This document shows, piece by piece, positions 20,435 to 24,700 of a stretch of 64,000 nt of DNA. Positions within the stretch are counted from its first letter, which is position 1, and the number at the start of each line of letters is the position of its first letter. The DNA is taken from positions 124,001 to 188,000 of the forward strand of contig NZ_JAAAMU010000008.1 in NCBI RefSeq assembly GCF_009909195.1, read 5' to 3'. The stretch is from Paenibacillus sacheonensis (GTDB lineage: Bacteria; Bacillota; Bacilli; Paenibacillales; Paenibacillaceae). The notes beneath the pieces were generated by a model. It saw only the letters and a list, made by a program, of their open reading frames with translations. It was not told where the DNA came from and searched no databases. The translations under genes and the position numbers were made by a program.

Positions 20435-22363
20435 CTATTCTCCCTGCTCCGCCATCCACTGCTCCATCAGCCGATCCAGGCGCCCCTGCAGCGCCTCTCG
20501 CTCGGACCACATCTTCTCCATGCTTTCCATGGGAGATGCCGCCTCGGCGCCTTGCTCCGGTTCGTACAGCGCGGCATCAAGCTCCGCCAGCTTCCGTTCC
20601 GCCTCGTTGATCTCCGCTTCGAGCTTTGCGCTGTGCATTCCGCCCTTCGCGCTCGGCACGGCGTTCGACGGCGCGCGGCTCGGCTCCGGCCGCAATCGAC
20701 GCCGCTCTTCCGCTTCGCTCGCGATGTCGCGGGCCTTCCTTCGTCCGCTCTCCGCCGTGTATTCGCCGAAGCTGCCCAGGTAGACCCCGAGACGCCCAAG
20801 GTCCAGCTCCCAGATTTTCTGCGCCAGCCGGTTGATGAGATACCGATCATGCGTCACGATCAGAATCGTACCCGGATAATCCTCCAGCGCTTCCTCGAGC
20901 GCCTCCCTCGACGCGATGTCCATATGGTTCGTCGGTTCGTCCAGAATGAGCAGGTTCGGCTTCCGTAGCACGAGCAGCGCCAGCCTCAGTCGCGTCCACT
21001 CCCCGCCGGACAGCAGGCTGACCGGCTTGAAGACATCCGCGCCATAGAACAGGTAAGCCGCCAGCCGGTTGCGGGCTTCGCCTTCCTCCATGCCGGCCTC
21101 CATTCGGAAATAGTCCAGCACGGACTGTTCCGGATGCTCCGGGAGCTGCTGCTGCGCGAGATAACCGACCTCTACTCTCGAACCGAGCCGCACTTCTCCT
21201 CCGTCCGCGCGGGCTTCCCCGAGAATAAGCTTCAATAAGGTCGACTTGCCGGAGCCGTTGTCGCCGACCAGCATCACCTTCTCGCCGTAGAGAAGCTCTC
21301 CCGTGACTCCTCCCAAGATCGTCTTCGTCCCGAAACGCTTCTCCACGTCATGCAAGACAACGACTTGCTTGCCGGACCGCTCGGAAGGCCGCAGTTCGAA
21401 CTCCGCCTCCTTGCGATCGATCGCAGGGCGCTTCAGCTTCTCCATCCGATCCAGCGCTCGCTGCATGCTGGCCGCTCTGCGGAAGAATTTCCCGTTGTCG
21501 CCCATCCGCCCCCATTCCAACAGCTGCTTTATCGTCTCCCGCATCTTCTTGAGCTTCTTCTGCTGCTCCTGGTAATCCGCGAACTGCCGGAGAATCAGCT
21601 CTTCCTTCTCCTTCGCGTAGCGCGAGTAGTTGCCATGGAACACGGTCGACTCCCCGTCCTCGAGCTCTACGATCTTCGTCACGACCCGGTCGAGGAAGTA
21701 TCGGTCATGTGAGACGATCAGGCAGGCTCCCGCATACTTCAACAGGAATTCCTCCAGCCATTCCACGGCGGTCATGTCGAGGTGGTTGGTCGGTTCATCG
21801 AGCAGCAGAAGCTCGGGCTCCCGCAGCAGCTGAGAGGCGAGGCCGACCTTCGTCTTCTCTCCGCCGGACAGCGATGCGTACTCCCGCCCATACCACTCCC
21901 GGGGGATGCGCAGGCCTTCGGCGACCTGATCGATGCGGGCCTCGAGCTCATAGCCGCCGTCCAGCTCGAAGCGTTCCTGCAGCTTCGCGTACTCCGCGAG
22001 CAGCGACGCCAATCGTGCCGGACTCAGGTCCGGCGACGACATCGCCGACTCGATCGCCGTCATCCGATCCCGGCATTCGATTAAATCCCGGAAGCCTACC
22101 ACCAGCAGGTCGCGGACCGTCATGCCGGCTTCCAAACCCGGAACTTGCCGGAGATAGCCGATGCGCGCGTTCTTCCGAATGGCCACCAAGCCGTCGTCCG
22201 GGTGATCCAGCTTGGCAAGCATGCGCAGCAGCGTAGTCTTGCCGGAGCCGTTGCGGCCGACAAGCCCCGCTTTCTCGCCGTGATGCAGCTCGAAGGTGAC
22301 GTTTTCCAGGACGAGCTGGGCGGCGTTGTATTTCTTCACTTGTTGGCAATTGATCGTTAACAT
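20435..22363 (-). CDS. ABC-F family ATPase, probable antibiotic ribosome-protection protein
   Basis: The 642-residue soluble protein has two ATPase domains and no membrane segment. Walker A motifs are GRNGSGKT (36-43) and GDNGSGKS (367-374). LSGGE signatures are near 165 and 451, and DEPTNHLD/DEPTNHMD near 189 and 475. Between the domains lies the charged ABC-F linker (about 245-325), and a coiled C-terminal extension ends the protein. ABC-F proteins act in the ribosomal E site; one branch displaces lincosamide, pleuromutilin or streptogramin drugs. The Paenibacillus protein TaeA is a possible relative, not verified. The leader upstream has an attenuator layout, which favours a resistance role over housekeeping. 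Confidence 0.88.
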   Translation of the reverse strand: MLTINCQQVKKYNAAQLVLENVTFELHHGEKAGLVGRNGSGKTTLLRMLAKLDHPDDGLVAIRKNARIGYLRQVPGLEAGMTVRDLLVVGFRDLIECRDRMTAIESAMSSPDLSPARLASLLAEYAKLQERFELDGGYELEARIDQVAEGLRIPREWYGREYASLSGGEKTKVGLASQLLREPELLLLDEPTNHLDMTAVEWLEEFLLKYAGACLIVSHDRYFLDRVVTKIVELEDGESTVFHGNYSRYAKEKEELILRQFADYQEQQKKLKKMRETIKQLLEWGRMGDNGKFFRRAASMQRALDRMEKLKRPAIDRKEAEFELRPSERSGKQVVVLHDVEKRFGTKTILGGVTGELLYGEKVMLVGDNGSGKSTLLKLILGEARADGGEVRLGSRVEVGYLAQQQLPEHPEQSVLDYFRMEAGMEEGEARNRLAAYLFYGADVFKPVSLLSGGEWTRLRLALLVLRKPNLLILDEPTNHMDIASREALEEALEDYPGTILIVTHDRYLINRLAQKIWELDLGRLGVYLGSFGEYTAESGRRKARDIASEAEERRRLRPEPSRAPSNAVPSAKGGMHSAKLEAEINEAERKLAELDAALYEPEQGAEAASPMESMEKMWSEREALQGRLDRLMEQWMAEQGE

Positions 22364-22425
22364 GAGGGTTCCTCCTAAGCGGAGGCCCTACCCGTACGAT
22401 TGGCACCATGGAGAACCATATAAAA

Positions 22426-22453
22426 AGGACGCAGGGAAAAATCCCTACGTCCT
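22426..22453 (-). terminator. Intrinsic terminator inside the ABC-F leader (attenuator)
   Basis: A 12-bp stem (arms 22426-22437 and 22442-22453, one G-U pair, loop of four) is followed on the minus strand by TTTTTATA. It lies between the upstream ORF and the ABC-F start and points the same way as the gene. Transcription must read through it to express ABC-F. Confidence 0.85.
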
Positions 22454-22474
22454 CTCCGGTACAATCCGTTCAGG

Positions 22475-22618
22475 TTAAGGTAGGAGCCTCTTCGCGAGTT
22501 GTGATTTCGTATGATTAGAACAAGACAGAGCTCTCGCGTCTTGGGCAAAACCATGAGCGATGCCAGCCATCGCGATGGGCAGCCGGCTCACTTGATTATT
22601 CACAACCTCTCGATTCAT
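22475..22618 (-). CDS. 47-residue leader peptide (uORF) of the ABC-F gene
   Basis: An ATG at 22618 follows AAGGAGGTGAAGGTAGG, an excellent ribosome binding site, and opens a frame of 47 codons ending with TAA at 22475. The peptide begins MNREVVNNQVSRLPIAMAG and ends KSQLAKRLLP. The stop is 22 bases before the terminator stem. In known ABC-F resistance genes, drug-stalled ribosomes on such a uORF prevent the terminator from forming. The peptide has no recognisable family. Its role as sensor is inferred from position. Confidence 0.65.
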   Translation of the reverse strand: MNREVVNNQVSRLPIAMAGIAHGFAQDARALSCSNHTKSQLAKRLLP

Positions 22619-22651
22619 CCTACCTTCACCTCCTTGTCTATACGTAGTTCG

Positions 22652-22681
22652 AGTATACTACATCCCCGTCCGCTGCCGCAA
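22652..22681 (-). promoter_or_regulatory. Candidate sigma-A promoter of the ABC-F leader
   Basis: On the minus strand TTGCGG (22681-22676) and TATACT (22657-22652) are separated by 18 bases. The start would be about 25 bases upstream of the uORF ribosome binding site. Confidence 0.5.
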
Positions 22682-23559: not shown

Positions 23560-24477
23560 TCAGCTTAGCAAGCTCAAGTTCAAATGCTGCATTTTATCCG
23601 GATTGCGCAGGATATATATCCGCTGCACGCGCCCATCCCGCAGCTCCAGGCTGACAATGGTCGGGTACGATTCGGAAGGGCTGCTAAGCACGACGCCCAG
23701 TTGGCCGTTAATCTTGACCATTCGCATGCGGCCCAAGCCATTGTCCTTGGACAGGATCCCTTGAATAAACGCAAGCGCGCGCCGGCTGGATACGATCGGC
23801 TTGACCGCCGCGAATACCTTGCCGCCGCCGTCGTTGTACAGCACGATGTCGTCAGCGAGCATCGCGAAGAGCCCTTCCATGTCGCCGGTAGCCGTCGCAT
23901 GGAGAAATCGGAGTACGAGCTGCTCGGACCGCTCGCTGGCTATTGCCTCCGGCTGCGGCCGGTCTTCCTGGATTTTTCGTTTGAGGCGGCTGAAGATTTG
24001 GCGGCAGCCGAGCTCGGTCTTATCGACGAAGTCCGCGATATCGCGATACTCGAATTCGAAGGCCTCCCGCAGTATGAATACGGCCCGCTCGATCGGGGTC
24101 AGCCTCTCGAGCATGATGAGGAAGGCATACGATATCGTATCCTCCAGGACGATGCGTTGGAGAGGATCCTGTCCTGCAGCGGTCCCTGGATGGAGCACGT
24201 AATCCTGCACGAGAGGCTCCGGCAGCCAAGGTCCGACGTAGACCTCTCTATTCTTGCGGGCGGACTTCAAGTCATCCAAGCAGCGGTTCGTCACGATTTT
24301 GCATAAGTACGCCTTCAGGTTGCGGATGGAACCGCCCTCTTGATGGATGTTCTGCTGCTGAACCGTTACGAACGCGTCCTGCACCAAATCCTCGGCCTGC
24401 GTGACCGACCCCAGCATGCGGTACGCGATGGAGAGCAGAAGCGGCCTGTACGTCTTATACACGGAATCAAGCTCCAC
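23560..24477 (-). CDS. SigJ-type ECF sigma factor with SnoaL-like C-terminal domain
   Basis: The 305-residue protein has sigma region 2 (LLLSIAYRMLGSVTQAEDLV), region 4 (LTPIERAVFILREAFEFEYR then DIADFVDKTELGCRQIFSRL) and a C-terminal SnoaL-like domain of about 110 residues. That tail replaces a separate anti-sigma factor in ECF41-like groups and modulates activity. Such factors are often next to oxidoreductase or carboxymuconolactone decarboxylase genes. Here the upstream neighbour is a decayed thioredoxin-reductase-like gene. I use the GTG at 24477, after AAGGAAGG. Confidence 0.88.
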   Translation of the reverse strand: MELDSVYKTYRPLLLSIAYRMLGSVTQAEDLVQDAFVTVQQQNIHQEGGSIRNLKAYLCKIVTNRCLDDLKSARKNREVYVGPWLPEPLVQDYVLHPGTAAGQDPLQRIVLEDTISYAFLIMLERLTPIERAVFILREAFEFEYRDIADFVDKTELGCRQIFSRLKRKIQEDRPQPEAIASERSEQLVLRFLHATATGDMEGLFAMLADDIVLYNDGGGKVFAAVKPIVSSRRALAFIQGILSKDNGLGRMRMVKINGQLGVVLSSPSESYPTIVSLELRDGRVQRIYILRNPDKMQHLNLSLLS

Positions 24478-24489
24478 GATGGATCCCTT

Positions 24490-24700
24490 CCTTAACGTTA
24501 TCCTTCCATGCCAGTATACCATTTGCTGGCTGTTTGGCGCCGGACAATGAGGCATTAAGCAGCATCCCGGATGCTCCGGCCCCATAAGAACAAAAGCGCG
24601 GATTTGCTGCCCGTGCCAAGCAGGCGGAGGCCGTTAATTCCGCTGCGCCGGTCCCGATAATGACAACGTCCCTGGCGCGCTCGCTGTCGTTAGGCGTCAT
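24490..24700 (-). pseudogene. Remnant of a thioredoxin-reductase-like FAD oxidoreductase
   Basis: From an ATG at 24700 with GGAGAGG upstream, the frame reads SERARDVVIIGTGAAELTAS then ACLARAANP, an FAD-binding GxGxxG start in which the last Gly is Glu. It then loses the pattern, but the overlapping frame supplies LVLMGPEHPGCCLM, which resembles the expected block (compare GP-PGGQLM in TrxB). Only about 70 residues survive before the sigma-factor gene. A likely former partner of that sigma factor. Confidence 0.5.

Follow-up and report, generated by a model that had tools for sequence, protein, structure and literature searches.

A conserved uORF-containing leader as a probable ribosome-sensing attenuator of an ABC-F gene in Paenibacillus, with a core sequence found in leaders of antibiotic-resistance genes

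The leader of vmlR in B. subtilis, as described in PMC9226507, comprises an upstream open reading frame (uORF) with its own Shine-Dalgarno (SD) sequence, an anti-antiterminator that holds the uORF, a terminator, and a hairpin that masks the SD of the gene, together with an alternative pairing by which that SD is freed. Pausing of RNA polymerase acts in the same leader (PMC9226507). The tlrB (yxjB) leader of B. subtilis requires a NusG-dependent pause, according to PMC6851288, with a pause hairpin that forms the apex of larger hairpins. The uORFs that have been described for ABC-F genes contain 3-4 codons in VmlR, VmlR2, CplR and LsaA, on the account given in PMC10201436, and 6 codons in MsrD on that of PMC10314930. 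A table in PMC4335068 lists RLR-type leader peptides for erm(D) and erm(K). In Listeria, a review (PMC8079631) cites term-seq results by which RliI is a putative conditional terminator of lmo2760. Inducible resistance leaders have so far been studied mostly one gene at a time.

We have analyzed a 64,000-nt stretch of DNA from Paenibacillus sacheonensis (the window), taken from a 7.4-Mb genome assembled in 46 contigs. A leader upstream of an ABC-F gene in the window is predicted to have the same set of elements as vmlR, together with an alternative pairing that would free the SD of the gene. It differs in the length of its uORF (47 codons, compared with 3 in vmlR), in being selected at the level of the peptide, and in the ABC-F subfamily to which the gene belongs. 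The tlrB leader is similar by description, with a leader peptide, a terminator and an SD-masking hairpin; there the peptide is a 9-codon RYR peptide and the gene is a different one. The first-pass annotation had stated that the uORF was unlike known ones and longer, and this is borne out, with 47 codons set against 3-6 in the described ABC-F uORFs.

Elements and pairings of the leader

The leader elements and the ABC-F gene all lie on the minus strand, and are located as follows.

22676..22681, minus: -35 hexamer TTGCGG; TTGC is present in most of 31 aligned leaders
22652..22657, minus: -10 hexamer TATACT; aligns with TATGGTA-like sequences of orthologues
22619..22635, minus: SD region of the uORF, AAGGAGGTGAAGGTAGG (leader alignment and window sequence)
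22618..22631, minus: P1a, predicted anti-antiterminator partner of P1b, -20.2 kcal/mol (exchange test, window fold)
22475..22618, minus: 47-codon uORF, MNREVVNNQVSRLPIAMAGIAHGFAQDARALSCSNHTKSQLAKRLLP (ORF list, conservation, 22 database homologues)
22550..22582, minus: uORF codons 13-23, peptide-selected (synonymous-fraction test)
22523..22539, minus: site of the core motif, here ACGCGAGAGCTCTGTCT, within CAAGAC...GTCTTG
22472..22490, minus: P1b, the end of the uORF, GAGGCTCCTACCTTAACCT (exchange tests, window fold)
22422..22456, minus: intrinsic terminator (covariation, exchange test, shuffles)
22382..22393, minus: post-terminator strand, GGGTAGGGCCTC; predicted to pair with P1b (-24.7 kcal/mol) or to mask the gene SD (-14.3 kcal/mol)
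22366..22388, minus: predicted SD-masking hairpin, GGGCCTCCGCTTAGGAGGAACCC (comparative pairing tests, window fold)
20435..22363, minus: ABC-F ATPase, 642 aa (NF000355)

The two promoter hexamers are separated by an 18-nt spacer. A strict promoter scan of the window leader called no promoter; a TTGC...TATGGTA-like pair is visible in most of the 31 aligned orthologous leaders. The order of promoter, ribosome binding site, 47-codon uORF, terminator and ABC-F gene given in the first-pass annotation is recovered with every element present, and its gap of 22 bases between uORF and terminator holds with 22452 taken as the first base of the stem; the stem as predicted begins a few bases sooner.

The start codon of the uORF is at the same position in all 31 orthologous leaders, and in 20 of these the uORF is exactly 47 codons long (range 43-56), so that the arrangement is more than chance. 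One further orthologue (L034) was excluded from the count because its leader sits ~730 nt upstream. Database searching returned 22 homologues of the uORF besides the query, 47-49 aa in length in all but one, and those bearing names are called hypothetical or uncharacterized. Codon changes were analyzed in 29 leaders, two with early indels having been removed. Within codons 13-23 the synonymous fraction is 0.444, compared with 0.046 and 0.064 in the shifted frames; shuffling of columns gives a mean of 19%, and none of 300 shuffles reaches the observed value. Judged from these changes codons 13-23 are under selection at the level of the peptide, and we take it from the codon-level selection that the uORF is probably translated. 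In codons 2-12 the synonymous fraction is 29%, a value reached by 4 of 300 column shuffles. It is 6% in codons 24-33 (29 leaders; reached by 295 of 300 shuffles) and 8% in codons 34-46 (20 leaders; reached by 290 of 300), and this scarcity of synonymous changes indicates that the constraint in these two sections is on the RNA, not the peptide. In three leaders (L019, L021 and L024) the frame shifts near the 3' end of the uORF while the RNA stays conserved. A conserved peptide in the last third of the uORF was ruled out, since synonymous changes are few in this section and conservation is highest at third codon positions.

RNAalifold applied to the leaders gives 25 pairs, nine of which have changed on both sides, five of the nine being in the terminator. 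We also compared the energy of each pairing with that obtained when the partners were swapped between leaders, using leaders clustered at 85% identity, a step that corrects only partially for relatedness. In this exchange test the arms of the terminator give z = -24.5 (66 leaders). A lenient finder locates a terminator in 78 of 78 leaders, with a median of -21.0 kcal/mol; that of the window has an energy of -26.6 kcal/mol (z = -6.7), which none of 200 shuffles equals. P1, the helix between the SD region of the uORF and the region preceding the terminator, gives z = -15.8 (66 leaders), and a helix flanking the core motif gives z = -9.0 (78 ABC-F leaders). Both the terminator and P1 are directly supported by these data, and P1 is predicted to hold the uORF in an anti-antiterminator helix, just as expected of an attenuator of the vmlR kind. 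The pre-terminator side also pairs with the region following the terminator (66 leaders; z = -5.8 relative to exchanged partners and -5.1 relative to shuffled ones), and two scanned segments at the end of the uORF give z = -7.3 and -8.8 with that region, which directly supports a helix between the uORF end and the masking strand. The post-terminator strand pairs with the gene SD better than exchanged partners do (z = -5.2, 61 leaders) and hardly better than shuffles (z = -1.4), and the SD-masking hairpin of the window taken alone is no better than shuffles (z = -0.98).

The putative antiterminator is less clear than the terminator, P1 and the pairing between uORF end and masking strand. Taken as a whole, the pre-terminator region pairs with the 5' arm of the terminator no better than with exchanged partners (z = -0.5). 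One scanned segment gives z = -7.4 with the terminator flank; it was selected out of a scan in which each segment had 12 exchanges and another segment gave +4.9.

In the window P1b has three rival partners, as the 5' flank of the terminator (-13.8 kcal/mol) is added to P1a and the post-terminator strand. When the SD and the first seven codons of the uORF are blocked the predicted window fold shifts P1b onto the masking strand, a shift that is partly by construction because the block covers P1a itself. The freed gene SD still forms a 4-bp hairpin in the blocked fold. Blocks at the core or at the stop codon of the uORF do not switch the predicted window fold.

Its set of elements makes the window leader a probable attenuator of the vmlR type, distinguished by a long uORF, and we place at roughly 85% the probability that it acts as a ribosome-sensing attenuator of both transcription and translation for a ribosome-protection-like ABC-F gene. 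An attenuator had been proposed from the first reading of the sequence, with alignment of orthologous leaders as a check, and the conserved and partly covarying uORF, terminator and alternative pairings now support it. We infer the following order of events. In the absence of drug the ribosome would read through the uORF and P1b would re-pair with P1a; with P1 formed the terminator would form, and RNA that was nevertheless read through would have its gene SD masked by the post-terminator strand. An inhibitor would halt ribosomes on the early uORF, either by acting on them there or because they queue upstream of others stalled within the peptide-selected codons 13-23, and P1a would be covered. 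The free P1b would then pair first with the 5' flank of the terminator and subsequently with the masking strand, whereupon transcription would continue and the gene SD would be released. The core probably times the switch, through a pause of RNA polymerase within the uORF hairpin.

The ABC-F gene and the RNA family of its leader

The ABC-F protein of the window passes NF000355 (ribosomal protection-like ABC-F) with 475 bits against a cut-off of 380, and is far below the NCBIfam cut-offs for the named resistance subfamilies Vga, Msr, Lsa, OptrA, CplR and Sal. We regard it as a probable ribosome-protection-like protein with a putative role in resistance. A pleuromutilin resistance protein of Paenibacillus, TaeA, is described in PMC5155152 and PMC6723617. 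At E<=1e-170, 27 of 59 genomes from its genus, family and order (own genome included) carry the window gene, as do five Paenibacillaceae records of the genome collection (L035-L039). A tree built from 42 ABC-F proteins unites the window subfamily in one group of 27 rows that includes the Listeria and Staphylococcus plasmid copies, with support of 97/93; some long branches of the tree meet at other lineages, not in this group. Uncharacterized ABC-F genes of ~41% identity are borne on staphylococcal plasmids (L293 and matches H6-H15), and the copy that was read (L293) groups with the window subfamily and is preceded by a uORF-containing leader in which the core is degenerate. Near the window locus, a sigma factor of the TIGR02957/SigJ type is encoded on the same strand at 23560-24585.

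The protein could have a role other than resistance. The leader might sense translation stress or the activity of the ABC-F protein, which would relieve a stall on the uORF peptide and so limit itself. Such a scheme would sit well with a protein outside the named resistance subfamilies, with the peptide selection on codons 13-23 and with a gene as common as this one (27 of 59 genomes), and MsrD is reported in PMC10314930 to be able to regulate its own expression negatively. However, the core is also present in the leaders of drug-resistance genes, namely Erm, Cfr, FexA, Msr and others, and we consider self-sensing possible but unlikely.

The leader belongs to an RNA family that is absent from Rfam 15. 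The window has no match at gathering score in Rfam 15, only weak ones below it, and the covariance models for ncr1575 (RF02452) and rliI (RF01487) do not reach their gathering scores on it. A covariance model built from 19 leaders and used to scan genomes at E<=1e-3 has matches in 148 of 197 genomes from the family to which the window belongs, in 99 of 149 from its order, and in 87 of 299 from its class, other Bacilli included; these counts nest, so that 27 of the 87 are from the family itself, and the remaining 60 include many weak matches. Eighty divergent matches were retrieved, and an ABC-F gene follows the leader in 67 of these (35 of 40 in a first batch and 32 of 40 in a second). Within the first batch three matches look spurious (L201, L208 and L209) and two decayed (L211 and L212), and four of the 32 ABC-F loci of the second are a short-uORF paralogue. 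One group of the family (L206, L207 and L210) has a longer leader with repeated copies of the core, the ABC-F start lying 260-390 nt beyond the matched part. Interrupted or decayed-looking ABC-F copies follow an intact or partial leader in two loci (L220 in genome G014 and L212 in G063).

The leader of the Listeria orthologue is itself rliI (RF01487), matched at gathering score (L292:2197-2435). Thus rliI, which is annotated as a Listeria sRNA, sits where the window leader sits, before an ABC-F gene of the same subfamily (lmo2760 in the literature). Like the window leader it precedes an ABC-F gene of that clade (97/93) and has a uORF, here of 36 codons, and a terminator; it differs in that its Rfam model misses the window, its core is degenerate with two mismatches, and it is annotated as an sRNA. 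In a further locus (L332:1206-1413, minus strand) the gene behind ncr1575 encodes a VmlR-like ABC-F protein (6ha8 as best PDB match, 627 bits), and we therefore take ncr1575 to be a vmlR-type leader. In the same locus a Cfr gene with its own core leader immediately precedes it, which gives a tandem of two resistance-type genes, each with an attenuator-like leader.

A core sequence in the leaders of unrelated genes

The consensus of the 17-base core, ACGGGA-N3-GTNTGYCC, was derived from 147 distinct instances upstream of ABC-F genes with <=3 mismatches allowed. The window core differs from ACGGGANNNGTNTGYCC at 3 of 13 fixed positions, counted by eye; scored with a pattern that is a little looser, the Listeria copy shows 2 mismatches and the Staphylococcus plasmid copy 3. 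Four instances that were misplaced or doubtful (L001, L004, L007 and L219) were dropped before the structure tests, to which the window leader was added by hand. Sequence located 45-130 nt downstream (e.g. GGACGGAT) was rejected as a pairing partner of the core, with z = 1.0 against exchanged and -1.2 against shuffled partners.

Of 398 Bacilli genomes, 111 contain the exact pattern ACGGGANNNGTNTGYCCNWTTT, at 134 places in all, and none contains the reversed pattern. The window's own genome has no match to the exact core. We classified 93 of the 134 places by the downstream gene, the shares not being representative because retrieval favored places not yet tied to ABC-F. The window's ABC-F subfamily follows at 55 places and other ABC-F genes at 10 (5 Msr-type and 5 with a short uORF). 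Elsewhere the core precedes genes for RlmA/TlrB-like (4), Erm (3), Mef-like (3), FexA or FexA-like (3), other MFS (4) and GNAT (2) proteins, and for Cfr, Mph-like, methyltransferase and RibD proteins at one place each, with 5 unclassified; in L327 and L329 the core and the gene start are >1 kb apart. FexA of L304 (1043 bits), Msr of L319 (745), Erm of L297 (235) and Cfr of L332 (606, and 592 for CfrAB) pass their NCBIfam cut-offs, and the Mef-, Mph- and RlmA-like proteins tested fall below theirs. The FexA leader of L304 recurs in 162 plasmid records, 154 of which match it over >=80% of its length. In the 42-protein tree, two further ABC-F lineages carry the core in exact or near-exact form.

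Leaders of the erm(D)/erm(K) type and of fexA carry the same core as the ABC-F leaders, before genes unrelated to ABC-F. The fexA leader also resembles that of the window in having a long uORF, of 53 codons, with an SD region that pairs with the uORF end, whereas the RLR-type peptides of the erm(D)/erm(K) type, of 13-16 codons, stop ahead of the core. Peptides of RLR type precede the core in many of the non-ABC-F loci. An Rfam scan of 29 further loci found rliI, ncr1575, FMN and cobalamin elements, of which only rliI is a core-carrying leader. The accessible part of the literature on attenuation and resistance leaders, searched by topic and not by the letters of the core, yielded no account of a shared core.

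Read as a peptide, the core would give T-G-x-V-C-P-F-L in the +1 frame with wobble-like freedom. Yet a TAG lies inside the N3 in L189 and L198, the core occupies a different uORF frame in L191, L225, L249 and L250 (and in L231, where the start codon is doubtful), and it follows the uORF stop in L228, L240, L252 and L260. The peptide reading was therefore dropped, and the core is treated as a nucleic-acid element. It fits the elemental pause consensus at G-10, Y-1 and G+1, and is followed by a T-rich stretch in many Bacilli, more weakly in Paenibacillaceae; the consensus, and the T-rich stretch of NusG pauses, are as given in PMC12288461. The core may thus be a pause signal for RNA polymerase, and its recurrence before many unrelated resistance genes of Bacilli suggests one shared, still unnamed control element.

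We lean slightly toward a broader proposal, in which the portable ACGGGA-N3-GTNTGYCC, likeliest a programmed pause of RNA polymerase, would define a single superfamily of uORF attenuators, with the window as the long-uORF branch having a selected nascent peptide. Leaders of the proposed superfamily cover three ABC-F lineages and Erm, Cfr, FexA, Mef-like, Mph-like and TlrB-like genes across Bacilli. If the core is indeed shared, unknown inducible resistance genes could be found from sequence alone, the induction of resistance would be tied to a defined signal for the timing of transcription, and the ABC-F subfamily, with its uncharacterized copies in Listeria and on staphylococcal plasmids, would be marked as probably drug-regulated.

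Alternatively the core might be an RNA structure that is bound by a protein or small molecule in the manner of a riboswitch, the uORF being secondary. In the ABC-F leaders it is near-invariant and lies between covarying arms (the exchange z of -9.0), it is independent of frame, and in six core loci (L307, L308, L309, L313, L317 and L334) the script called no uORF. However, an SD-preceded uORF was called in the remaining core loci of that scan, and 26 non-ABC-F leaders support a wider flanking helix (z = -5.5) but not the close one (z = -0.4 and -1.7). A bound structure therefore seems doubtful, and we prefer a programmed pause. That the uORF is a free-standing small protein owning the terminator, with regulation of the ABC-F gene incidental, is most improbable, since its conserved peptide stretch and strong SD have to be set against the close linkage to ABC-F (67 of 80 divergent matches), the shifts of reading frame in its last third despite a conserved RNA, and the pairing with the SD-masking strand.

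In one locus (L317, ~458-640) the core lies just after an FMN riboswitch, upstream of ribD. RNA polymerase pausing acts in ribD. In two genomes of the family (L307 and L334) an exact core, with no uORF called by the script, lies upstream of a gene for a GNAT-type acetyltransferase.
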